From IMG/VR virus record IMGVR_UViG_3300020165_000106, positions 1-29,610 of that record: a DNA stretch of 29,610 bases. One strand, written 5' to 3'. This document shows, piece by piece, positions 936 to 29,516 of this stretch. This DNA comes from a virus. The position numbers and the translations under genes are program-made. Each line of letters begins with the position of its first letter. Positions within the stretch are counted from its first letter, which is position 1. Below the pieces are notes generated by a model. That model was given only the letters and a program-made list of their open reading frames with translations, did not search any database and had not been told where the DNA came from.

Positions 936-963
936 TTGTAATTCCATAAGAATCAAGTATAAT
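936..963 (+). promoter_or_regulatory. Sigma70-type promoter of the tmRNA
   Basis: TTGTAA (936-941) and a perfect TATAAT (958-963) are separated by 16 bases. The predicted start is near 970, just upstream of the tmRNA precursor. It lacks the CCCAAAAGG spacer element seen at the 3783, 4141 and 5363 promoters. Confidence 0.65.
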
Positions 964-974
964 ACATCACATAA

Positions 975-1320
975 AACAAAGATTGTTTTTAGTGAAGGTA
1001 CTAGGTTCGGGACACCATATGATCGGTTATAAATTACCCGGTAATCATTTCCCTAGTATTTTCACTAAATACAATCTATCGTTGTATGAAGTGAAGTAAA
1101 AGGCACTTTGGACGCCGGTTCGACTCCGGCCACCTCCACCAATAAACAGCAGAGGGGGTGTCAGGGATTCGACAGAGTGATAAGTAACGGAGCAGACAAC
1201 GGGGTAGGCGATGACCCTAAATCAAGCAAACACTATAATTGACAACAATTATGAAATGGAAGATTACGCCTTAGCGGCCTAATCCCCCGAGGTTCAAGGT
1301 AACCTCGTCACCCAATACCC
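975..1320 (+). ncRNA. ssrA: Circularly permuted (two-piece type) tmRNA
   Basis: The tmRNA 3' part comes first. A T-arm (GCCGG, loop TTCGACT, CCGGC at 1114-1130) is followed by the acceptor strand CACCTCC (1131-1137) and an encoded ACCA ending at 1141. After a 12-base intervening segment (1142-1153), the 5' part starts with GGGGGTG at 1154. The two strands form a 7-bp acceptor stem with a G-U pair at the third position, the alanine identity element. GGATTCGAC follows. P2 can form between 1174-1179 and 1104-1109, and between 1184-1189 and 1080-1085. The resume codon is GCA at 1226 and the tag reads ANTIIDNNYEMEDYALAA, with stop TAA at 1280-1282. A CGAGGTT/AACCTCG hairpin follows. The role is rescue of stalled ribosomes and proteolysis tagging. 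The permuted form is typical of alphaproteobacteria. The outer ends of the mature pieces are not resolved; the precursor limits given are approximate. Confidence 0.93.
981..1076 (+). repeat. 25-bp imperfect stem-loop at the 5' end of the tmRNA precursor
   Basis: Bases 981-1005 pair with 1052-1076: 22 Watson-Crick pairs, two G-U pairs and one T-T mismatch. The loop holds a further palindrome (ATTACC-C-GGTAAT, 1033-1045). It lies directly upstream of the 3' strand of P2. It may be part of the acceptor-piece fold or a processing signal. Confidence 0.75.
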
Positions 1321-1321
1321 A

Positions 1322-1353
1322 GGAGGGGAAATTCGTTTCCCCTCCGCCTTTTT
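1322..1353 (+). terminator. Rho-independent terminator of the tmRNA
   Basis: GGAGGGGAAA and TTTCCCCTCC form a perfect 10-bp stem closed by a TTCG tetraloop, then GCCTTTTT. It ends two bases before the late promoter of the next gene, separating the two transcription units. Confidence 0.92.
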
Positions 1354-1354
1354 C

Positions 1355-1367: not shown

Positions 1368-3161
1368 ATGAACATACTTGAATTAGAAAAATTTAAAATC
1401 GAAGATGCAATTAATTTCCATGATGAATACAATCCTTTGTTGTTTGATGGGGATAAATTAAAGCCTGTTATTAAAAGACAGTTAGATATTATCACTAATG
1501 ACTTTATTGAATACATGGGAATTCCTGATCTAGCAGTTGAAGATGTAATTATTACAGGTAGTAATGTTGCATATACATATACTCCACATTCAGATATTGA
1601 TTTACATTTACTTGTAGATTTTGCAAAACTACCTAATTCAGATGTTTACAAAGAATTATTCAATGCTAAGAAGTCTTTATACAATGATACTTACGAAATA
1701 ACTATCAGAGATATTCCTGTTGAATTGTATGTACAAGACACAGCACAAGCACATACTAGTTTAGGTGAATACAGTTTATACAAAGATGAGTTTACACGTA
1801 TTCCTACTAAGAAAAGAGCAAACTTAGATGAAATATCAGCAGAAGCAAAGTTTGAAAGATTAGAAGAACTTTGTATTGAAGGCTTAAAAACAAAAGATTT
1901 AGATAAAGTCAACGAAGTCTTATCAATTATCAAACGATATCGACAAGCAGGACTAGATACTAAGGGAGAGTTTGGTCCTGAAAACTTAGCATTTAAGGCT
2001 ATCAGATCAAAAGGATACTTTCAAGCATTGTTTGATTTACGTAACAAGTTAAGAGCCCAACAACTATCTATTGAAGAAGAACTGCTACGCAGAACATTTG
2101 AAGAGTCTATTGGTATCACTGAACAAGAAGTCGAACTATCAGAAGAAGGTGTTACTGAACAGTATGGCGAATACGGCGTAGGCATGTTAGCAAGACGATA
2201 TAATGTGAGCAGAAAAGAAATAGCAAAGCAAGTCGATTTAGGTGTGCGACTCGAAATGAGGCATAATTCTAAAGTCTCAGCAATTACTCCAGAACTTCGC
2301 AGAGAACAAGCCTCTGAAATAGCAAGAAACAATATTGCAAAAAGGTTAGACTACTATCAACATTATGACAAGCACATGCAAGAATCATTGCAATATGATT
2401 TAGATCAGGAGTATGATGAATATGGCATGCCAGACTACACTAAGTATCTAAATGCAATTAGTAGGATTGTCAGATACACAAAGAGTAAAGGGGAAATCAT
2501 CCAACGTCTTCTAAAACAATTTCCTAATATAGATAAAAGAGATGGGAAGATGCTCATACAGCGATGGGAAGTGGTAAAGTCGCATAGTAAGAAAGATAAA
2601 GAAAGTTTGGTATCAGAAGAAAAGCAATATGCTTTATACGTTGATGGCAATCCATTAGTTAGAGACTCTAGTCGAACAGAAATAGAAAAACATATAGCAT
2701 TTTTAAAATCTAAGGGTCACAAAGGTAAGTTTGATATTAGATATGTAGACTTCTCTCCTAAAAGAACATCAACAACGATCGGTGAAGCATCAGATGAATC
2801 TGATTGGTCAGATGAAGATTTGAAAAATCTAAGTCTGGAAATGCAGAAGATGGCAAAAGAAATGAAACGAGAGTTAAGACTCGCAAAAAGAAGAGCCAAA
2901 TACCATGGTGTTGACCCTGATACTTATATGGGCTTAGATGAAGCATCAGGATATATTCCAAGTGAAGCACAAAAGAATGATCCAAGATTTTCTTATGCAT
3001 TAACTAAAGATGTAAGACCAGACACAATGAAGAAAGGCGCAAAAGCAATGGGACTTGGTGATATTGCACGTGACGGTCGTCCACCACTTCTAAGACCAGG
3101 AAAGGCTACAACAAAGAAAAAATCTAATCCTAACAAAGACTTTGGTAAAGGCATATACTAA
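1368..3161 (+). CDS. Large late protein with N-terminal nucleotidyltransferase-fold domain
   Basis: 597 residues. The N-terminal part carries a nucleotidyltransferase signature: GSN at 64-66, then SDIDLH with acidic residues at 76 and 78, and a plausible third carboxylate near Glu119 (IPVELYV). This is the GS...DxD pattern of the Pol-beta/MNT superfamily, which transfers a nucleotide or is an inactive scaffold. The middle (about 240-420) is charged and helical. The last 100 residues contain SGYIPSEAQKNDPRFSYAL and a basic end, a tail style I associate with large structural or packaged proteins of marine T4-like phages. The gene has its own leaderless late promoter and is followed three bases later by the next gene. 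The NTase substrate is unknown. Late expression suggests a virion-associated or late regulatory role, which is inference. Confidence 0.85.
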   Translation: MNILELEKFKIEDAINFHDEYNPLLFDGDKLKPVIKRQLDIITNDFIEYMGIPDLAVEDVIITGSNVAYTYTPHSDIDLHLLVDFAKLPNSDVYKELFNAKKSLYNDTYEITIRDIPVELYVQDTAQAHTSLGEYSLYKDEFTRIPTKKRANLDEISAEAKFERLEELCIEGLKTKDLDKVNEVLSIIKRYRQAGLDTKGEFGPENLAFKAIRSKGYFQALFDLRNKLRAQQLSIEEELLRRTFEESIGITEQEVELSEEGVTEQYGEYGVGMLARRYNVSRKEIAKQVDLGVRLEMRHNSKVSAITPELRREQASEIARNNIAKRLDYYQHYDKHMQESLQYDLDQEYDEYGMPDYTKYLNAISRIVRYTKSKGEIIQRLLKQFPNIDKRDGKMLIQRWEVVKSHSKKDKESLVSEEKQYALYVDGNPLVRDSSRTEIEKHIAFLKSKGHKGKFDIRYVDFSPKRTSTTIGEASDESDWSDEDLKNLSLEMQKMAKEMKRELRLAKRRAKYHGVDPDTYMGLDEASGYIPSEAQKNDPRFSYALTKDVRPDTMKKGAKAMGLGDIARDGRPPLLRPGKATTKKKSNPNKDFGKGIY

Positions 3162-8845: not shown

Positions 8846-9514
8846 TTGAAAGTAAAACTAATTAGTCACTCACAAGCACCAATGTATGAGGACTCCGCAT
8901 TAGACTTAGTTGCATACTGTGCAAGAGTAAGTAATCCAGATAATCAAAACAATAAAGAAACAAATGAAAAACTTGTAAAATATTTGATGAAACACAAACA
9001 CTGGTCTCCACTTGAAATGGTAAGTGTTTGTTTAGAAGTAGAAACAACTAGAGATATCGCAAGACAGATTCTCCGTCATAGATCATTCTCATTCCAAGAG
9101 TTTAGTCAACGATATGCAGATCCAACTAAAGACTTAGAGTTTGAAATTCGTCAAGCAAGACTACAAGATCCTAAGAACAGACAGAACAGCATTGAATTAG
9201 ATTCTGAGATGGATGGTCATGCTGTGTTGCAAGGTGAATGGAAAAATAAACAACAACGAGTTATAGATGCTTCACTAGATGCATACAATTGGGCTATCAG
9301 TAAAGGCATTGCTAAAGAACAAGCAAGAGCAGTATTGCCAGAAGGTAATACAATGAGTAGACTATATGTAAACGGTACACTACGTAGTTGGGTTCATTAC
9401 ATTGAACTGAGAGAAGCAAACGGTACGCAATTAGAACACATTGAAATTGCGAAAGAAGTAGCAAAGGTTATACATGAAATTTTCCCATTAACATTGCAAA
9501 ACGAAACTGTATAA
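8846..9514 (+). CDS. thyX: Flavin-dependent thymidylate synthase ThyX
   Basis: 222 residues. It converts dUMP to dTMP using methylenetetrahydrofolate and FAD. The ThyX signature RHRx7S is complete at 77-87 (RHR then S87), followed by QRY. The length is normal for ThyX. The start is a TTG at 8846 with AAGGA a few bases upstream; no in-frame ATG fits better. It lies just after a terminator and heads the metabolic run that continues to 13249. ThyX in a phage supports thymidine supply for genome replication and is common in marine phages. Confidence 0.96.
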   Translation: MKVKLISHSQAPMYEDSALDLVAYCARVSNPDNQNNKETNEKLVKYLMKHKHWSPLEMVSVCLEVETTRDIARQILRHRSFSFQEFSQRYADPTKDLEFEIRQARLQDPKNRQNSIELDSEMDGHAVLQGEWKNKQQRVIDASLDAYNWAISKGIAKEQARAVLPEGNTMSRLYVNGTLRSWVHYIELREANGTQLEHIEIAKEVAKVIHEIFPLTLQNETV

Positions 9515-17255: not shown

Positions 17256-18818
17256 ATGAGCAATTTTAATACAAGTGGTACAGGCGAATTAGTCAAACCC
17301 GCATACAAAAAAACGCACTTCAAAGACCAGACAGAAGTTGATGATTTTGTAAAGTGTTGTGACCCTGATACTGGTTATCTATACTTTATGGATAACTTCT
17401 TTTACATTCAACATCCAACGCAAGGATCAATTCAATATCATCCTTATGAATACCAAGAACGATTAATCGACACATATCATAACTACCGTTATTCAATCGC
17501 ATTGATGCCTAGACAATCAGGTAAGTCTACATCAGCCGCAGGTTATCTATTATGGTATGCTATGTTTGTACCTGATGCTACAATTCTAATTGCCGCACAT
17601 AAGTACACAGGCTCACAAGAGATCATGCAACGTATCAGATATGCATATGAAGCATGTCCTACGCATATTAAAGCAGGTGTAACTACGTACAACAAAGGCT
17701 CACTAGACTTTGAGAACGGCTCTCGTATCGTCTCAGCAACGACTACAGAGAACACAGGTCGTGGTATGTCTATTACACTTCTATACTTAGATGAGTTTGC
17801 ATTCGTAAGACCTACAATTGCAGAGCAGTTTTGGACTTCTATCACACCAACACTAGCAACAGGTGGTAAAGCAATTATCACATCTACTCCAAACTCTGAT
17901 GAAGATCAGTTTGCATTGATTTGGAAACAAGCAAATAAGAATATTAATGCACAAGGAGAAGAAACAGAACTAGGTGTTAATGGATTTAAACCCTTTAGAT
18001 CATATTGGAAAGAACAGCCTGGTCGTGATGATAAATGGGCAGAAGAAATTAAAGCACAGTTAGGTGATGACAGATTTGCACGTGAGATTGGTTGTGAATT
18101 CTTAATCGCAGACGAAACTTTAATAAATCCTAATACACTAATCATGTTAGAGTCAGTAGAACCTGTTAATAGAATGGGACAAGTCAGATGGTTTCAAAAA
18201 CCCAAAAAGGATATGGTCTATGTATTAGGACTAGATCCGTCATTAGGTACAGGTGGAGACCCAGCCGCTATACAAATCTTTGAAGCAAATACTACTACAC
18301 AAATAGGCGAGTGGAAAGATAATAAAACTGATATTCCTCAACAAATTAAGTTACTAGGACAGATTACACAACATATTGCAGAAATAACTGGTGAACCAAA
18401 TAACATCTACTACTCACTAGAAAACAATTCGATCGGAGAAGCGGCTTTAGTATCATTATCAGAGTATGGTGAATCAAACATTCAAGGTATCTTCTTAAGT
18501 GAAAAGGGTAAAAAACGTAGAGGATATAACACAACACAAAAAGTAAAACTTGCGGCATGTGCTAAGATGAAAACATTGATGGAAAGCAAGAAAATGAATG
18601 TTAAAAGTAAAGCATTGATCAGTGAATTAAAAACATTTGTTGCATCTGGTGGCAGTTACGCCGCTAAGATAGGAGACAACGATGATTTAGTAATGGCTAC
18701 ATTACTTGTAGTACGTATATTGCAAGACATTACAGACTTCCATAGTGATTTGACAGAGCATATGCGTGACCATGATGAAATGGTTGCACCCTTGCCGTTC
18801 TTTGCTGTGATTAACTAA
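17256..18818 (+). CDS. 17: Terminase large subunit (T4 gp17-like)
   Basis: 520 residues. It is the DNA-packaging motor: an N-terminal ATPase and a C-terminal RNase H-like nuclease. Walker A is MPRQSGKS (84-91) and Walker B LLYLDEF (175-181). Candidate nuclease carboxylates are Asp327 (GLDPS), Glu389 (SLEN) and Asp477 (NDDLVMA), in the order and spacing of gp17. The length is somewhat below T4 gp17. It is transcribed from a late box placed so that the message is leaderless. The small terminase subunit is not identified in this window. Confidence 0.97.
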   Translation: MSNFNTSGTGELVKPAYKKTHFKDQTEVDDFVKCCDPDTGYLYFMDNFFYIQHPTQGSIQYHPYEYQERLIDTYHNYRYSIALMPRQSGKSTSAAGYLLWYAMFVPDATILIAAHKYTGSQEIMQRIRYAYEACPTHIKAGVTTYNKGSLDFENGSRIVSATTTENTGRGMSITLLYLDEFAFVRPTIAEQFWTSITPTLATGGKAIITSTPNSDEDQFALIWKQANKNINAQGEETELGVNGFKPFRSYWKEQPGRDDKWAEEIKAQLGDDRFAREIGCEFLIADETLINPNTLIMLESVEPVNRMGQVRWFQKPKKDMVYVLGLDPSLGTGGDPAAIQIFEANTTTQIGEWKDNKTDIPQQIKLLGQITQHIAEITGEPNNIYYSLENNSIGEAALVSLSEYGESNIQGIFLSEKGKKRRGYNTTQKVKLAACAKMKTLMESKKMNVKSKALISELKTFVASGGSYAAKIGDNDDLVMATLLVVRILQDITDFHSDLTEHMRDHDEMVAPLPFFAVIN

Positions 18819-21709: not shown

Positions 21710-22141
21710 TTACTCAACATCATTCAAAGGATTTTCTAAGATCGTTTGAATTCTTTCTTCTAATTCTTTTCTCATCTCACGCATTTCTTTGTCTTGCTCT
21801 TTGAAACGTTCTTGCATCTCACGCTCCATCTCATAAACATCATCACGTACTTCACGTTGAGTTTTTGATGATTCACTTTCTACTCTACGTGCTAAACGAG
21901 ATGCTTCTGTAATCTCTCCTTGCAAGTTATCTTTGATAACTTCTGTAAGTTCAGTCAATCTGACAATCTCTTGTTCAATTACTTCTGGTTGCAGATTTTC
22001 TAATTTTTCTTCTGCTTCAAGTAATCTATTATAGAGTTCAAAGCCTCCCCATAAACCACCTATTAATGTTCCTAATAAAGGTAAAATGATAAGCAGTTTA
22101 CTGCCACTCATCTTAATGCCTTCGTATTCTACACTTGCCAT
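21710..22141 (-). CDS. Single-TM protein with long coiled coil
   Basis: 143 residues. An N-terminal transmembrane segment (KLLIILPLLGTLIGGLWGGF, about 15-34) is followed by roughly 100 residues of heptad-like charged helix rich in Glu, Arg and Lys. It is the last gene of the minus-strand operon, nine bases after the preceding one. It is probably anchored in the inner membrane with the coiled coil on one side. I associate the MSGSKLLI...GGLWGGF N-terminus with unnamed marine T4-like phage proteins. Confidence 0.8.
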   Translation of the reverse strand: MASVEYEGIKMSGSKLLIILPLLGTLIGGLWGGFELYNRLLEAEEKLENLQPEVIEQEIVRLTELTEVIKDNLQGEITEASRLARRVESESSKTQREVRDDVYEMEREMQERFKEQDKEMREMRKELEERIQTILENPLNDVE

Positions 22142-22150
22142 AATATACTC

Positions 22151-22555
22151 CTATTGTTTACTGCTAAATGCTTTTCCTGCTTCAGCAATACCAAATGATC
22201 CTAGTGTTACAACAACAAACGATGTATAGATAAAGTCTGATATGACTAAATCTGTGCCGTCTAATCCTGTCACTAAGTCTACTACACCAAACGCAACCAT
22301 CATAAAAAACGATGCAAAGCCAATGATTGATTTTTCATTGATTTTGTTGTCGTCCATAAATAGGCCACTAATAGTAAACTTTTCTTTTGGTTTCACTTCA
22401 TGGGAAACTTTTCTTAAGTCTTTGGTCAATGCTTCCATCTCTTTGATTTTGTCATTAGCCTCGTCTAATTTTAGAAGTAGATCAGTATACTTGTCTAAAT
22501 CTAAGTTTTGAACGACTCCGTCGCCGCCCTCGATTTTGATGTTTTCTTCACTCAT
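22151..22555 (-). CDS. Membrane protein with N-terminal coiled coil and two TM segments
   Basis: 134 residues. Residues 20-50 form a charged helix. KINEKSIIGFASFFMMVAFG and IYTSFVVVTLGSFGIAEA contain two predicted membrane segments near 78-97 and 108-125. It starts in a TAATG junction with the large exported-protein gene upstream. Two membrane segments and small size are also seen in holins, but here the neighbours are exported proteins. The function is unknown. Confidence 0.8.
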   Translation of the reverse strand: MSEENIKIEGGDGVVQNLDLDKYTDLLLKLDEANDKIKEMEALTKDLRKVSHEVKPKEKFTISGLFMDDNKINEKSIIGFASFFMMVAFGVVDLVTGLDGTDLVISDFIYTSFVVVTLGSFGIAEAGKAFSSKQ

Positions 22556-25500
22556 TATTTTTGCTCCTGTGTTTCTTCATCTGGATTAATTCCATATTGC
22601 ATAAGAACCATCTTATACAATTTTTCTTGTGTGTTGCCAGCCATACGATAGAATCCCATTTTGTTGTCATCTATCCTACCATCTGGCATTTGTTTTTTGT
22701 CAAAGAAGCCTGCATTTCCTTGACTATATACTTGCTCACCTGTATAAGCACTGAATCCTGCTGTATAACCTATATAAGCAACAGCAATAGTTTGGTCTGC
22801 ATAACCACCGTCATCAGTAGGTTCGCCTTCTTGTATATTCTGTAGTTGAGCCTCTAAGTTTGCTTGTGCAACTGTAGCGCCAACAGAGTCTGCTAGACTC
22901 TCAACTGCTTCTGTAGTACGTTGTTCTTGTGCTGAGTTCTGTACTTCAAAACGTTGAAAGTTTGGTGCTTGTTGACTTAAAAATTCAGTCAACCCTGTAC
23001 CAGTCGCCAATGCTTCAGTTAAACTATCTTCAAACTGTACGTCAGTACTACTAATTCCACCAGTACCGTCATCAAAGTTTTCCACAAATAACTGTTCTTC
23101 TTGCATCATTTCTTGTTGTTGTACAGCAACTTCAAAGGCAGAAGTCTGTACAACGTCTACAGACGTGCTAGAGACATCAATAGCAGTGTCTACTTGACCA
23201 GTTACTTGTTCAAATTGTTGTTGACTTGAACTGTCTGCAATTGCACCAGTCGAATCACTACTAGATGAACTAGCAACTGATTGTGAACCAGTGTTATTAA
23301 AACTGCTACCGTCTTGACCTGCGAAACTTTGTGATGCACCTGAATCAACTTGCACTGACGCAGAGGCTCCACCGTCACTAATTACATCTTCAATAACGTT
23401 GGCAGTTTGTGCATCATCTGAGACTGCGGAAGCAATCTGTGCAATAGCAACACTTTGATAAGAAGGTCTTGACTTAGAAGACGAGCCAGAACTTGAAACA
23501 GCCTGTTCTGCTTCTTTCTCTACACGAACTTCTTCTTGTGCTATTTCTTCACGGACTTCTTCTTGTTCTTCTTCTACGATTAATACTTGTTCCTCGATCA
23601 CTTCCTCTTCTCTTATTTCTTCAGTAGATTCTTCAGCAGTTAATTCTTCTAATTCTGCTTCACTAATTAATTCTTCAAATGCCTCATCTTCTACGATAAG
23701 TTCAAATACTTCATCAGATTCTACAAAGATTTCTTCTTCAGTGTAATCAGGCATTAACTCATCATCTTGTGCTATCCAAACTTCTTCTTCAGGAGCACCT
23801 TCAACAAATGTGTCCCAATTGATTTGACCTTCTTCATCAAATTCTATGTTTTCGTGCCATTGATCAACTTCTTCTTGTCCATATGTTGCAACATCATGTT
23901 CATACCAATCTTGGTCTGTGAACGAATAAAAATCGTCTCCGTATGTTTCAACCATACCCTCTAATCGTTCTGTTTCTTGTTGTTGAAATTCTTCAGTTGC
24001 CCAAACATCAGCAGTAAGTGTGTCAATGTTACCATTAGGATCCCATTCAAGTGACTGTTGTTGCATTGCAGTATCATGTAATTGAGTATCATAGTTTTCT
24101 AATCCACCTACAGTGTCTAATACATAGTCACCCGGTCTGTGCCCGTTGAATTGTACTGCTAATGGATCTTCTCCTAATGCGGCTATGTGTTCTTGCCCCA
24201 TTGTTACAAACATAGCATCTTGCGGGGAAAGTCCTTGATCGACAAGCATTTGTTGTTCTGTGTTTAAGTCATCATATGAGATGTTAGGATCAAGTCTAGG
24301 GTCATATACACCACCTTCCATCCAGGGTTCATCACCAAAGTCACCATTGACACCTCCGTCATCATAGACATAACCATCATTGTATACAGATCCATCTGTA
24401 TTGTATTGTTCTCCAGTATTAGGATCAGTCATTAATCCTGTAGTTGGATCGTAACCTCCTGAACTAGTAGCAATAATTGCGGCATCATACCCAGGACAAC
24501 TTGGATCATACAATGGATCAATTTCACACATCAACCCTTGATCTACTTCATTGCCTTCATATAACTCACATCCACTATCATATTGTGAATCTAAATTACA
24601 TTGATATTCTAAATATGCTAGATCATACAATAAACAATCTGTTGAATATAAAGGATTGCTTTGACATTGTACTGGTTCACCGTCTGCTTCTGAATATAGT
24701 ATACCTCCACCGTCTTCTAAGTATCCACCATCCATATCATCAAAAGTATTGTCAACACTACCATCACCTAAGTTATCTGTATTGTCATCATAAAATAGAT
24801 ATTGAGTATAGTTTGTATTGCTTTTTTGTTCTCCGATCAAAACATCATGGTTTATGATATCTAAATCACCATACAAAAATCCATAGTTGTCAGGTTTGTT
24901 TACTTCTGCTCTTTCTGAATCAGTACAGGCTATTCTTGTATTACTGTCTCCGCATTTTGCATTAGAGTCGTTGTAATCAAATATGTAAACTTCAAAACTA
25001 TTTTCTGATACTCTATTGTATTCTCTTAAATTATACCAACCGAATATGGCATAATCATCAAATGCTTTATATAATAATGCACTGTTACTGTTTCCCCCAA
25101 TCAAGTCAGTATAAAAGGGAAAAAGAGTATCAGTTACATGTTTAGTATAACCTTCTTCTCCACTACCTAATTGATTTGGTGTGTAGTCGTAGCACATCAA
25201 ACTGTTCCAATTACCAATGCTGTAATCTTCTTTTACTAATTTAAGACAACCATTCGTACTCATTACTGCGGCAGTATACGAGTCGTTATGCCACTCCCAT
25301 GAAAAACCAAATTCCATTCTTACATAACAACCACTGTCATCACTAAATGAACCATAGTTATCTGTAACTATGGTTTTACAACCTGACACACCAGTCAGAC
25401 CACTACGAGTCAAATCATACAAATCTCCGTAATTTCCAGTAACTGAGTAAATGGTATTGGTGCCGTCGGCATTCGACTCGTTATAGTCAGGAGGATTGTA

Positions 25501-25560
25501 TTGTGCTACCGCAAACATGGGTAGCATCAATAGTAATGATATTATTGTGAATCGTGCCAT
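22555..25560 (-). CDS. 1001-residue exported acidic protein with C-x9-C repeats
   Basis: The N-terminus (MARFTIISLLLMLPMFAVAQ) is a clear Sec signal peptide, likely cut after residue 20 or close by. Residues 60-250 are beta-rich with FGFSWEW, STNGCLKL and DTLFPFYTDL, reminiscent of a nidogen-like (NIDO) extracellular domain. Three repeats follow, each C-x9-C: 299-309, 321-331 and 345-355, with a PLYDPSC type core. Residues 620-720 are extremely Glu-rich. The segment after it (KSRPSYQSVAIAQIASAVS) and the C-terminal part (DKKQMPDGRIDDNKMGFYRM) look conserved. It overlaps the preceding gene by 19 bases. Export to the periplasm or surface is well supported by the signal peptide; function is unknown. 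Confidence 0.88.
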   Translation of the reverse strand: MARFTIISLLLMLPMFAVAQYNPPDYNESNADGTNTIYSVTGNYGDLYDLTRSGLTGVSGCKTIVTDNYGSFSDDSGCYVRMEFGFSWEWHNDSYTAAVMSTNGCLKLVKEDYSIGNWNSLMCYDYTPNQLGSGEEGYTKHVTDTLFPFYTDLIGGNSNSALLYKAFDDYAIFGWYNLREYNRVSENSFEVYIFDYNDSNAKCGDSNTRIACTDSERAEVNKPDNYGFLYGDLDIINHDVLIGEQKSNTNYTQYLFYDDNTDNLGDGSVDNTFDDMDGGYLEDGGGILYSEADGEPVQCQSNPLYSTDCLLYDLAYLEYQCNLDSQYDSGCELYEGNEVDQGLMCEIDPLYDPSCPGYDAAIIATSSGGYDPTTGLMTDPNTGEQYNTDGSVYNDGYVYDDGGVNGDFGDEPWMEGGVYDPRLDPNISYDDLNTEQQMLVDQGLSPQDAMFVTMGQEHIAALGEDPLAVQFNGHRPGDYVLDTVGGLENYDTQLHDTAMQQQSLEWDPNGNIDTLTADVWATEEFQQQETERLEGMVETYGDDFYSFTDQDWYEHDVATYGQEEVDQWHENIEFDEEGQINWDTFVEGAPEEEVWIAQDDELMPDYTEEEIFVESDEVFELIVEDEAFEELISEAELEELTAEESTEEIREEEVIEEQVLIVEEEQEEVREEIAQEEVRVEKEAEQAVSSSGSSSKSRPSYQSVAIAQIASAVSDDAQTANVIEDVISDGGASASVQVDSGASQSFAGQDGSSFNNTGSQSVASSSSSDSTGAIADSSSQQQFEQVTGQVDTAIDVSSTSVDVVQTSAFEVAVQQQEMMQEEQLFVENFDDGTGGISSTDVQFEDSLTEALATGTGLTEFLSQQAPNFQRFEVQNSAQEQRTTEAVESLADSVGATVAQANLEAQLQNIQEGEPTDDGGYADQTIAVAYIGYTAGFSAYTGEQVYSQGNAGFFDKKQMPDGRIDDNKMGFYRMAGNTQEKLYKMVLMQYGINPDEETQEQK

Positions 25561-26873
25561 TCTGCTTCACAACTCTTAGTAGATTTACGTCTTCCTTTAA
25601 AGTCAGGTCTAGTACATTTTTCTAAATAAGCGGCTTCATCAGCAGATACGTTTGATATTTGGTCAACTTCAATTTTGTCAGAACTGAATACGCCTAAGAT
25701 TTTACTCTTAACACCTTTCTTTTGATCAGGACGTCTGTCTTCATTCTTTTCCCATCTGTCAGAAGCGGCTGGTCCAATTGCACCCATATACGGACAAGGT
25801 GTTCCTGCCATTTCCATTGCTTGAAATACTCTAGGATCCTGACACATTAATGATACTGCGGCTACTTTCATACCCATATCATATATTGTTTTGGACAACT
25901 TGATTCTTTCACAGTTCATGTCTCTAACAGACTTACCACCTGATAAACCGAATACTTGACCCTGAAACGCTCCAGACACACCTGTTGTACATAAGTCTTG
26001 TGAATAACTAGACCCGATACTCGGTGCAATCGCACTTGCTGGTGGTGCCTTAGTTGTGATCTCTTGTTTAATAGTTTGATCAGTTTTGTTTATGTTGGTG
26101 TTGTTATTCGTATTAGTGTTCTCATTTTTGTTCTCTGACTTGTTATTAGTCGTTACATTAGAATCACTTGTACTGGTCGAAGTGTTGTTATTGTTATTGG
26201 TGTTATTCGAGGTCGTATTATTGTTATTCGTGTTAGTATTGTTTGAAGTACTATTAGAATTTACATTTTGGTCAATATTAGAATTGTTGTTATTCGTATT
26301 GGTGTTATTCGAGGTACTGTTTACCGTACTATTGTTGGTATTGTTATTGGTATTGGTATTGTTACTAGTCGAATTATTGGTGTTATTGTTCGTGTTAGTA
26401 TTGGTATTAGTCGAAGTATTGTTATTCGTATTGTTATTGGTATTGGTATTGGTACTTGTTGAAGTATTGGTATTATTGTTTGTGTTATTATTGGTATTAT
26501 TGTTTGTATTGGTATTGGTCGAAGTACTAGTATTGGTATTATTGTTCGTGTTAGTATTGGTACTAGTCGAAGTATTATTATTAGTATTGTTATTAGTGTT
26601 GGTATTGGTATTGGTGTTCGTATTGGTATTGGTGTTAGTATTGGTATTATTGTTCGTATTGGTATTAGTAGAGGTGTTGGTGTTAGTATTGGTATTAGTC
26701 GAGGTGTTGGTATTCGTATTTGTGGTAGTACTTGTAGAAGTACTTGCTTCACAATTCTCGGTACCCGCTGTACAGGTGCCAGTGGCCTGTGCAGAAATAT
26801 TTGGCGTATATGCCATGGCAATAAATAAAAGTGCAAATGCAATCGATAGTCGCATGTTAGAATTTATGAACAT
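25542..26873 (-). CDS. 443-residue exported protein with Asn/Thr repeat
   Basis: First gene of the minus operon. After a short N-region comes a hydrophobic signal sequence (RLSIAFALLFIAMAYTPNIS then AQA). Met7 is an alternative start, but AGGA lies nine bases before ATG 26873. Residues 44-262 are almost entirely Asn and Thr with some Ser. The C-terminal domain (263-443) has six cysteines at 295, 321, 344, 360, 420 and 435 and the element MCQDPRVFQAMEMAGTPCPY. The repeat could be a flexible spacer, or an N-rich assembling segment. It is probably co-exported and works with the 1001-residue protein downstream. Confidence 0.85.
   Translation of the reverse strand: MFINSNMRLSIAFALLFIAMAYTPNISAQATGTCTAGTENCEASTSTSTTTNTNTNTSTNTNTNTNTSTNTNTNNNTNTNTNTNTNTNTNTNTNNNTNNNTSTSTNTNTNNNTNTSTSTNTNTNNNTNNNTNNNTNTSTSTNTNTNNNTNNNTSTNTNTNTNNNTNNSTSNNTNTNNNTNNSTVNSTSNNTNTNNNNSNIDQNVNSNSTSNNTNTNNNNTTSNNTNNNNNTSTSTSDSNVTTNNKSENKNENTNTNNNTNINKTDQTIKQEITTKAPPASAIAPSIGSSYSQDLCTTGVSGAFQGQVFGLSGGKSVRDMNCERIKLSKTIYDMGMKVAAVSLMCQDPRVFQAMEMAGTPCPYMGAIGPAASDRWEKNEDRRPDQKKGVKSKILGVFSSDKIEVDQISNVSADEAAYLEKCTRPDFKGRRKSTKSCEAEWHDSQ
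26088..26744. repeat. Low-complexity tandem repeat encoding Asn/Thr runs
   Basis: Irregular short units built of AAT/AAC and ACT/ACC codons on the minus strand encode 219 residues of N, T and S. Codons vary between units, so the repeat is kept at the protein level as well as in the DNA. Such DNA is prone to length change by slippage. Confidence 0.9.
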
Positions 26874-27145: not shown

Positions 27146-28138
27146 ATGGCAAGTCTAGCTGACATCCGTGCCCGTCTCGCGGCACAAGAAAATAAACCTA
27201 CAGGGAATTATCCCCAATCTGACGGAGCGATTTATCCTCATTGGAAAATGGACGAAGGTGCATTAGCATCATTGCGTTTTTTACCCGATGCTGATACTGG
27301 TAACTCATTCTTTTGGATTGAACGACAAGTCATCAAATTACCATTCAATGGTATTAAAGGTGAAGTAAATTCAAAACAAGTGACTGTTCAAGTTCCTTGT
27401 GTTGAAATGTTCGGAGAAAATTGTCCTGTACTAGCAGAAGTTCGTCCTTGGTACAAAGACGAAACTCTAAAAGAAATGGCTAACAAATACTGGAAGAAGA
27501 GAAGTTATCTTTTTCAAGGCTTTGTACGTCAAAACCCAATTGGGGAAGACAATACTCCTGCGAATCCTATTCGTAGATTTGTTATTTCACCTCAAATCTT
27601 TCAAACGATCAAGTCTTCATTGATGGATCCTGAAATGGAAGAGTTGCCAACTGATTACATGCGTGGTCTTGATTTCAACATTAAGAAAACGACTAAAGGT
27701 CAGTATGCTGATTACTCAACATCATCATGGTCTCGTAAAGAAACTGCATTGACTGAAGTAGAACAAGCGGCTATTGAAGCACATGGTCTATTCAACTTAG
27801 CAGACTTCTTACCTAAGAAGCCAAGTGAGTCAGAACTCAGAGTCATTAAAGAAATGTTCGAGGCATCAGTAGATGGTCGTCCATACGATACTGACAAGTT
27901 CGGTGCTTACTATCGTCCATATGGTGTTGATGCACCTACAGGAACTCCAGCACCGGCCCCAGCGCCAGCGGCTGAAGTAGCAACTCCAGTAGAAACATCT
28001 ACTCCGTCGGAACCAGTAGTCGAAACTGCACCAGCAGTAGAAACTCCTTCAGCGGCTCCAGTTGAAAATGCTGAGCCATCTAGTGATAAAGCACAAGACA
28101 TTCTAGCAATGATTCGTGCAAGACAAAACAATTCGTAA
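27146..28138 (+). CDS. 32: Single-stranded DNA-binding protein (T4 gp32-like)
   Basis: 330 residues, with AGGAG upstream. The N-terminus (MASLADIRARLAAQE) is the basic cooperativity region. The core contains PCVEMFGENCPV (two Cys, 85 and 93) where T4 gp32 binds zinc. One T4 Cys appears replaced here (CPVL rather than a C-x2-C pair), so zinc binding may be altered. A Pro/Ala-rich linker (about 265-300) leads to a C-terminal tail ending DKAQDILAMIRARQNNS. The protein coats single-stranded DNA in replication, recombination and repair. It precedes uvsX by one small gene. The roughly 100-base leader could carry translational autoregulation as in T4. Confidence 0.94.
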   Translation: MASLADIRARLAAQENKPTGNYPQSDGAIYPHWKMDEGALASLRFLPDADTGNSFFWIERQVIKLPFNGIKGEVNSKQVTVQVPCVEMFGENCPVLAEVRPWYKDETLKEMANKYWKKRSYLFQGFVRQNPIGEDNTPANPIRRFVISPQIFQTIKSSLMDPEMEELPTDYMRGLDFNIKKTTKGQYADYSTSSWSRKETALTEVEQAAIEAHGLFNLADFLPKKPSESELRVIKEMFEASVDGRPYDTDKFGAYYRPYGVDAPTGTPAPAPAPAAEVATPVETSTPSEPVVETAPAVETPSAAPVENAEPSSDKAQDILAMIRARQNNS

Positions 28139-28433: not shown

Positions 28434-29516
28434 GTGGCAAAACCATTTGACGTTTCCAAATTTAGGAAAGACATAACCAAATCTATCGATGGCTTATCGA
28501 TAGGTTTCAACGATCCAACTGATTGGATCTCAACAGGTTCATATGCATTGAACTATCTTATTTCAGGAGACTTTGACAAAGGTGTTCCTCTAGGTAAGGT
28601 AACAGTCTTTGCAGGTGAATCAGGCGCAGGTAAATCATACTTTGCCGCAGGCAACATTGTAAAGTCAGCACAAGATCAAGGCATCTTTGTAGTCTTAATT
28701 GACACAGAGAACGCACTTGATGAAGCATGGCTACAAGCATTACAAGTTGACACTTCAGAAGAAAAACTTCTTAAGTTAAGCATGAGTATGATTGACGATG
28801 TAGCAAAAACTATATCAACCTTTATGAAAGATTACAAAGCAATGGCAGACGAAGAACGTCCTAAAGTGTTATTTGTAATTGACTCATTGGGTATGATGTT
28901 GACACCAACTGATGTTGATCAATTCGACAAAGGTGACATGAAAGGTGATATGGGTCGTAAGCCTAAAGCACTAACATCATTAGTAAGAAACTCTGTTAAC
29001 ATGTTCGGTAGTTATAACGTTGGACTTGTTGCAACTAATCATACATATGCATCGCAAGATATGTTTGACCCAGATGATAAAATATCAGGTGGTCAAGGCT
29101 TTATCTATGCATCAAGTATTGTTGTTGCTATGAAGAAGATGAAACTGAAAGAAGATGCGGCAGGGAATAAAATCTCTGAAGTAAAAGGTATTCGTGCAGG
29201 CTGTAAAGTAATGAAGACTCGTTATGCAAAACCTTTCGAGGGTGTGCAAGTGAAGATTCCTTATGAGACAGGCATGAATCCTTATTCAGGTCTTGTTGAC
29301 TTGTTTGAGAAATCAGGCGTGTTAACTAAGCAAGGCAATCGATTGAAGTATATCACTCAATCAGGTGAAGAAATTCTCAAGTTTAGAAAGCCTTGGGAAG
29401 CAAACGAAGATGGTTGTTTAGATAACCTTATGTCCGAATACTCTGAAGTTAAAGATGCGTTAGATGTTGTAAATAACGAAGATGCATTGACTAACGAAGA
29501 GGTAGACGTAGTATGA
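28434..29516 (+). CDS. uvsX: UvsX RecA-like recombinase
   Basis: 360 residues from a GTG start with AGGAG ten bases before it. Walker A is GESGAGKS (61-68) and Walker B LFVIDS (ending Asp150, Ser151). ATNHTYASQD and GGQGFIYASS correspond to the L1/L2 and core regions of RecA-type proteins. The acidic C-terminus (NNEDALTNEEVDVV) is usual for UvsX. It catalyses strand exchange in recombination-dependent replication with gp32. The TGA overlaps the ATG of the next gene (ATGA). Confidence 0.96.
   Translation: MAKPFDVSKFRKDITKSIDGLSIGFNDPTDWISTGSYALNYLISGDFDKGVPLGKVTVFAGESGAGKSYFAAGNIVKSAQDQGIFVVLIDTENALDEAWLQALQVDTSEEKLLKLSMSMIDDVAKTISTFMKDYKAMADEERPKVLFVIDSLGMMLTPTDVDQFDKGDMKGDMGRKPKALTSLVRNSVNMFGSYNVGLVATNHTYASQDMFDPDDKISGGQGFIYASSIVVAMKKMKLKEDAAGNKISEVKGIRAGCKVMKTRYAKPFEGVQVKIPYETGMNPYSGLVDLFEKSGVLTKQGNRLKYITQSGEEILKFRKPWEANEDGCLDNLMSEYSEVKDALDVVNNEDALTNEEVDVV

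Follow-up and report, generated by a model that had tools for sequence, protein, structure and literature searches.

A phage-encoded, circularly permuted tmRNA gene with an aspartate resume codon and its conservation in related viral contigs

Introduction

tmRNA is the bacterial RNA that frees stuck ribosomes and marks the unfinished protein for destruction. The 29,610-base stretch of DNA analysed here (the window) is an IMG/VR virus record in which a gene for such an RNA had been proposed from the sequence at 975-1353, with its two halves in permuted order. This raises the question of whether the gene is a working tmRNA gene of the phage itself, and what a phage would gain from it. The window contains T4-type phage genes and, as judged from the IMG/VR record and the assigned terminase, UvsX and ssDNA-binding protein, is phage DNA.

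Results and discussion

An intact two-piece tmRNA gene

The Rfam search that had been suggested as a check gave a match to the permuted tmRNA model RF04321 (tmRNA_permuted) with 129.6 bits (Infernal; E 2.1e-25, threshold 47) at 1080-1282, spanning the full model (positions 1-213 of 213). The beta_tmRNA model RF01850 matched 1030-1348 with 109.4 bits (Infernal; E 1e-32), and ARAGORN reported one permuted tmRNA (tmRNA*) in the window. The folding z-score of 975-1353 was -6.0, and the T-arm/acceptor motif occurred once in the window against 0 expected. These matches, the viral contig and the covariation in relatives described below bear out the main part of the original prediction, and the segment 1078-1320 is an intact circularly permuted (two-piece) tmRNA gene (Table 1).

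The predicted anatomy was also recovered. The acceptor/T-arm half, whose CCA ends at 1141, precedes the coding half with the tag, which starts at 1154, and the two are separated by the 12-base spacer. The standard one-piece layout (RF00023) was not found, as the coding part does not lie between the halves of the tRNA domain. Positions 1131-1137 and 1154-1160 form the 7-bp acceptor stem, which contains G1156-U1135, the G3-U70 alanine determinant, and P2-type helices connect the acceptor and coding pieces. The proposed extent does contain the tmRNA, but its start at 975 takes in a hairpin leader at 980-1077 that lies outside the tmRNA proper.

Table 1. Features of the tmRNA locus and phage genes of the window (positions in the window)
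Feature	Position	Strand	Basis or remark
Sigma-70-type promoter TTGTAA-16-TATAAT	936..963	+	10/12 matches; same box before the tmRNA in L125 and L126
Hairpin leader	980..1077	+	arms 980-1005 / 1052-1077; about 100 nt, between promoter and tmRNA
T4-type late-promoter-like motif TAAATAC	1066..1072	+	predicted start ~1077; putative function
Acceptor piece	1078..1141	+	RF04321 alignment, helix test; 5' boundary estimated
T-stem	1114-1118/1126-1130	+	within acceptor piece
3' acceptor strand; discriminator A; CCA	1131-1137; 1138; 1139-1141	+	within acceptor piece
Intervening segment, 12 nt	1142..1153	+	read from sequence, RF04321 alignment
Coding piece	1154..1320	+	RF04321 alignment, relatives, helix test; 3' boundary estimated
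5' acceptor strand GGGGGTG	1154-1160	+	within coding piece
Hairpin	1202-1217	+	within coding piece
AUAA element	1235-1238	+	within coding piece
Tag reading frame DNNYEMEDYALAA plus stop TAA; resume codon GAC	1241..1282	+	ARAGORN, RF04321 alignment, relatives
3' hairpin	1288-1307	+	within coding piece
Intrinsic terminator GGAGGGGAAATTCGTTTCCCCTCC + GCCTTTTT	1322..1353	+	stem 1322-1345 plus T run
Further TAAATAC boxes	1357-1363, 5399, 13253, 13729, 17245	+	just upstream of genes
Further TAAATAC boxes	905, 26910	-	just upstream of genes
ThyX	8846-9514
Terminase large subunit	17256-18818
ssDNA-binding protein	27146-28138
UvsX	28434-29516

A 13-residue tag that starts with aspartate

The tag had been read as 18 residues ending in YALAA, starting at an in-frame GCA at 1226. 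The ending stands, but the tag is 13 residues long, DNNYEMEDYALAA (1241-1279, stop codon 1280-1282). There is a strong preference for an AUAA or AUAG tetramer ahead of the resume codon, and a two-base spacing is also preferred; mutating the tetramer shifts the frame (PMC4236655). No correctly spaced AUAA/AUAG accompanies the GCA at 1226, which lies inside a conserved pre-tag element, and the five added codons change amino acid in L122 and L126, two of the related viral contigs described below. The GAC at 1241, two bases after AUAA, is aligned gap-free to the GCA that the Rfam model has as its consensus resume codon. We therefore placed GAC as the resume codon, based on the AUAA-NN rule, homology and a change of stop codon in one relative (TAG in L122, TAA in the window).

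Across the relatives L122-L125 the 13 tag codons vary only synonymously (GAT/GAC, TTA/CTA), leaving the tag identical. The L126 tag, DKNNYAMEDYALAA, is one residue longer and has one substitution. The GAC (Asp) resume codon is present in the window and in all relatives. An alanine codon (GCN) is typical at this position without being strictly required, and it was not found here. Among the 70 other viral permuted tmRNAs listed, the resume residue is Ala in 65, Gly in four and Asp in one, and the tags are 8-27 residues long. The tag length is thus ordinary, contrary to the suggestion that it is unusually long, whereas Asp as the first residue is rare. The Asp resume codon could reduce activity with the host SmpB.

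L013 also has a phage permuted tmRNA (1031-1354, minus strand) in which Asp (GAC) is the resume codon, two bases after AUAA; its tag is DNHIDYRMAA, and the gene is apparently unrelated to the family of the window.

Conservation of structure and tag in related viral contigs

A search with the downstream ORF revealed five related viral contigs, in all of which the tmRNA occupies the same position. The gene is complete in four of them (L122, L123, L125 and L126), while L124 begins inside it. The order of a minus-strand ORF1, the tmRNA, a nucleotidyltransferase (NTase)-like ORF, an ATPase and a VWA gene is largely kept. The spacer is 12 nt in L122 and L123 as well, and longer in L125 and L126.

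Covariation was assessed in the five complete copies (the window and the four full-length relatives) at 44 pairs, comprising the Rfam model pairs and two 3' hairpins. In this small alignment, in which the terminator helix is partly misaligned, the pairs were formed in 93.9% of cells, compared with 45-61% when the structure was slid along the sequences. Changes on both sides were found in 10 of the 44 pairs against a shuffled mean of 4.2, and 10 was never reached in 500 shuffles. The G3-U70 pair is invariant among the five sequences. Together with the synonymous changes in the tag, these patterns indicate selection on the RNA structure as well as on the tag.

Promoters, terminator and the 5' end

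The locus had been proposed to have its own promoter and terminator, and we found a promoter-like site at 936-963 and a strong intrinsic terminator, the stem of which is preserved in the relatives despite altered sequence. T4-type late promoters follow the pattern TATAAATA. The motif TAAATAC occurs ten times in the window, with eight copies within 1,852 intergenic bases (0.85 expected; Poisson p 3e-6), typically directly before genes such as the terminase gene. In this phage family TAAATAC probably serves as a late-promoter signal of the T4 type. It lies directly next to the tmRNA in L125, and L126 has TAAATAG in that place. In the window the predicted late start at ~1077 lies some three bases ahead of where pairing in the tmRNA begins, from which we infer that the late start coincides with the mature 5' end of the acceptor piece.

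The leader between the sigma-70-type promoter and the tmRNA is a hairpin with 26-nt arms (-38.3 kcal/mol, z -6.9), in which 25 of the 26 positions can pair as RNA, two of them via G-U. It is present only in the window record and absent from L122, L123, L125 and L126. In L122 and L123 a small ORF that begins like a signal peptide fills the same slot, behind a composite TATAATAAATAC box, and the tmRNA of these contigs is probably the 3' part of the small-ORF transcript. The slot between promoter and tmRNA thus tolerates insertions, since it holds the leader in the window and the small ORF in L122 and L123. From the sequences, three ways of making the tmRNA 5' end can be distinguished among the relatives. 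The small ORF lies at 847-1215 in L122, between promoter box and tmRNA, and in the matching region of L123.

Several explanations of the leader were tried and rejected. A known RNA was not supported, as the only match, to a miRNA model, was below threshold and attributable to chance. An assembly palindrome is unlikely, given arms that differ at 3 of 26 positions and flanks that align to the relatives on both sides. A widespread element was not found either, with 0 exact matches of the loop-side 19-mer in IMG/VR. The long helices upstream of the tmRNAs of L055, L090 and L114 overlap an apparent small ORF and were not accepted as comparable leaders. A role of the leader in processing or timing is possible, resting on one record. 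It is conceivable, though we think it unlikely, that the phage switches its tmRNA production during infection, with early sigma-70 transcripts carrying the 98-nt leader and late transcripts beginning at the mature 5' end, from the T4-type promoter that lies within the 3' arm of the hairpin. If so, the early leader would need removal, for example by RNase III, or would delay maturation, and the supply of a tmRNA with a phage-specific, Asp-start tag would be coupled to the late programme.

Probable function and alternative explanations

The evidence argues strongly for a functional, vertically maintained two-piece (circularly permuted) tmRNA encoded by the phage, and its most likely role is ribosome rescue in the infected cell by means of the host SmpB, alanyl-tRNA synthetase (AlaRS) and proteases. 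The precursor of two-piece tmRNAs is permuted and probably processed by RNase P and tRNase Z, and a two-piece tmRNA is functional in Caulobacter (reviewed in PMC3985003). In the phage, a single precursor RNA would be transcribed. The sigma-70 promoter (936-963) is its probable source, joined at a later stage of infection by the T4-type late promoter, which would start at the 5' end of the acceptor piece. The host RNase P and 3'-end enzymes would excise the 12-nt spacer, and the acceptor piece with its CCA and the coding piece would stay paired via the acceptor stem and the P2 helices. Once the tmRNA has been charged at its G3-U70 pair by the host AlaRS, it would be carried by host SmpB and EF-Tu to ribosomes that have stalled on broken mRNAs, which are expected to abound as phage nucleases degrade host mRNA. 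Translation would restart at GAC, append the tag DNNYEMEDYALAA and free the ribosome at the stop codon, and the -LAA end would direct the tagged product to host ClpXP-type proteases. The presumed benefit is that ribosomes are recycled for the phage once the host tmRNA becomes limiting or is no longer made. Apart from SmpB, the phage RNA comes with all the parts required. No SmpB gene was found in the window or its relatives, which are fragments, or in four complete phages that include two carriers of a permuted tmRNA; host SmpB is therefore probably used. Compatibility with the host SmpB, AlaRS and protease adaptor is assumed.

The gene could also be a relic that does nothing in the phage, either a host tmRNA gene that was picked up or what is left of an attachment site, as tmRNA genes are common integration sites (PMC9004378). 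However, the gene is complete, with compensatory changes, a purified tag frame and its own promoter and terminator, it occupies the same site in the five relatives, and no integrase was recognised among the examined window proteins; such a relic is extremely improbable. The selection on structure and tag argues that phage tmRNAs are working parts of ribosome rescue rather than relics of integration. The RNA might instead be charged and bound by SmpB mainly to inhibit host trans-translation, as with the tag-less RNA of mycobacteriophage DS6A, whose tmRNA consists only of the tRNA-like domain and inhibits tmRNA in E. coli (PMC11915505, PMC4131195), and the unusual Asp resume codon would suit such a decoy. 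Yet a decoy could do without the tag frame, stop codon, AUAA element and -LAA end, whereas all of these are conserved and the changes seen are synonymous. Selection on the tag frame makes this role, in our view, very improbable.

The tag might also serve to send tagged products, including proteins from phage-cleaved messages, down another protease or adaptor route than that taken with the host tag. It is fixed across L122-L125, and its first ten residues, searched with fully degenerate codons, were found in none of 84,980 prokaryote species genomes; neither the tag nor the T-arm matched a host in the species-genome collection. The YALAA end, however, is an ordinary ClpXP-type signal, other viral permuted tmRNAs listed include tags ending in EDYALAA or EEFALAA, and there is no sign of a distinct fate. 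A separate proteolytic route is therefore improbable, and rescue with disposal through host proteases remains the preferred reading.

Comparison with known two-piece tmRNAs

The original prediction implied that a phage gene of this kind was new. Two-piece tmRNAs are, however, known from Methylophilales phage Melnitz and about 50 marine or aquatic phages, and the 2022 survey of 18,146 phage genomes reported 53 unique two-piece structures, 50 of them marine or aquatic (PMC9004378). We also found at least 70 other IMG/VR contigs with an ARAGORN-confirmed permuted tmRNA in a scan allowing spacers of 4-34 nt; the 12-nt spacer of the window gene is at the short end of those found in viruses. The window gene thus adds a new example to a known class. 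A well-supported phage family, related by its terminase to jumbo myophages, joins the carriers of their own two-piece tmRNA. The three 5' arrangements among the relatives, together with the rare Asp resume codon, offer concrete handles on the question of when phages require a rescue RNA of their own, and why.

Melnitz and other marine myophages resemble the window in encoding a complete permuted tmRNA with a tag, with a promoter upstream, in marine or aquatic phages. The window gene differs from the Melnitz type in its gene neighbours, its Asp resume codon and its hairpin leader. A distant-mode blastn search with the window gene against phage records did not find the Melnitz-type two-piece tmRNA. 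No glutamine riboswitch like that of Melnitz was detected, either in the whole window at the Rfam gathering threshold or in 900-1400 with hits considered up to E = 5. With the alpha, beta and cyano two-piece tmRNAs of RF04321 the gene shares all tRNA-domain helices, CCA, G3-U70, AUAA and an -LAA tag, but it has GAC instead of GCA/GCN as the resume codon.

Phage-borne permuted tmRNAs also occur in Menderavirus (Stenotrophomonas) and in the Sinorhizobium jumbo phage Phosso, with tags that start with V or A (ARAGORN, by eye) and in other neighbourhoods. Stenotrophomonas phages of the Menderavirus kind have the gene in a tRNA cluster (L134, 1973-2346; 16 phage records), and it is unannotated in Mendera and several other Stenotrophomonas phage records. 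The gammaproteobacterial host of these phages has a one-piece tmRNA. In Phosso, an unannotated permuted tmRNA was found with 113 bits (L136, 1501-2103, minus strand; PV764938.1, 349596-350198). Its spacer is about 400 nt, compared with 12 in the window gene. Between the CCA and the 5' acceptor strand this spacer contains an inverted repeat, CCCCATCATAACAACATG / CATGTTGTTATGATGGGG, that extends into the acceptor strand, giving the impression that the tmRNA gene houses a further structured element.

Genomic context

The terminase of Phosso is a relative of that of the window (48.7%). The ORF behind the tmRNA (1368-3161) has a nucleotidyltransferase-like N-terminus (GS...SDIDLHLL; assignment phrog_36119), a fast-changing middle part and a strongly conserved C-terminal motif, EASGYIPSEAQKNDPRFSYALTKDVRPDTMKKGAKAMGLG. 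We considered this ORF as a partner of the tmRNA and rejected it: the nucleotidyltransferase match was sub-threshold, no relative was found among solved structures, and the ORF has its own late-promoter motif, located behind the tmRNA terminator. A minus-strand block at 21710-26873 comprises four genes, which are possibly a surface or lysis module. Two of their products, an acidic protein of 1001 aa and an Asn/Thr-repeat protein of 443 aa, each have a signal-peptide-like start and lack matches in Pfam.
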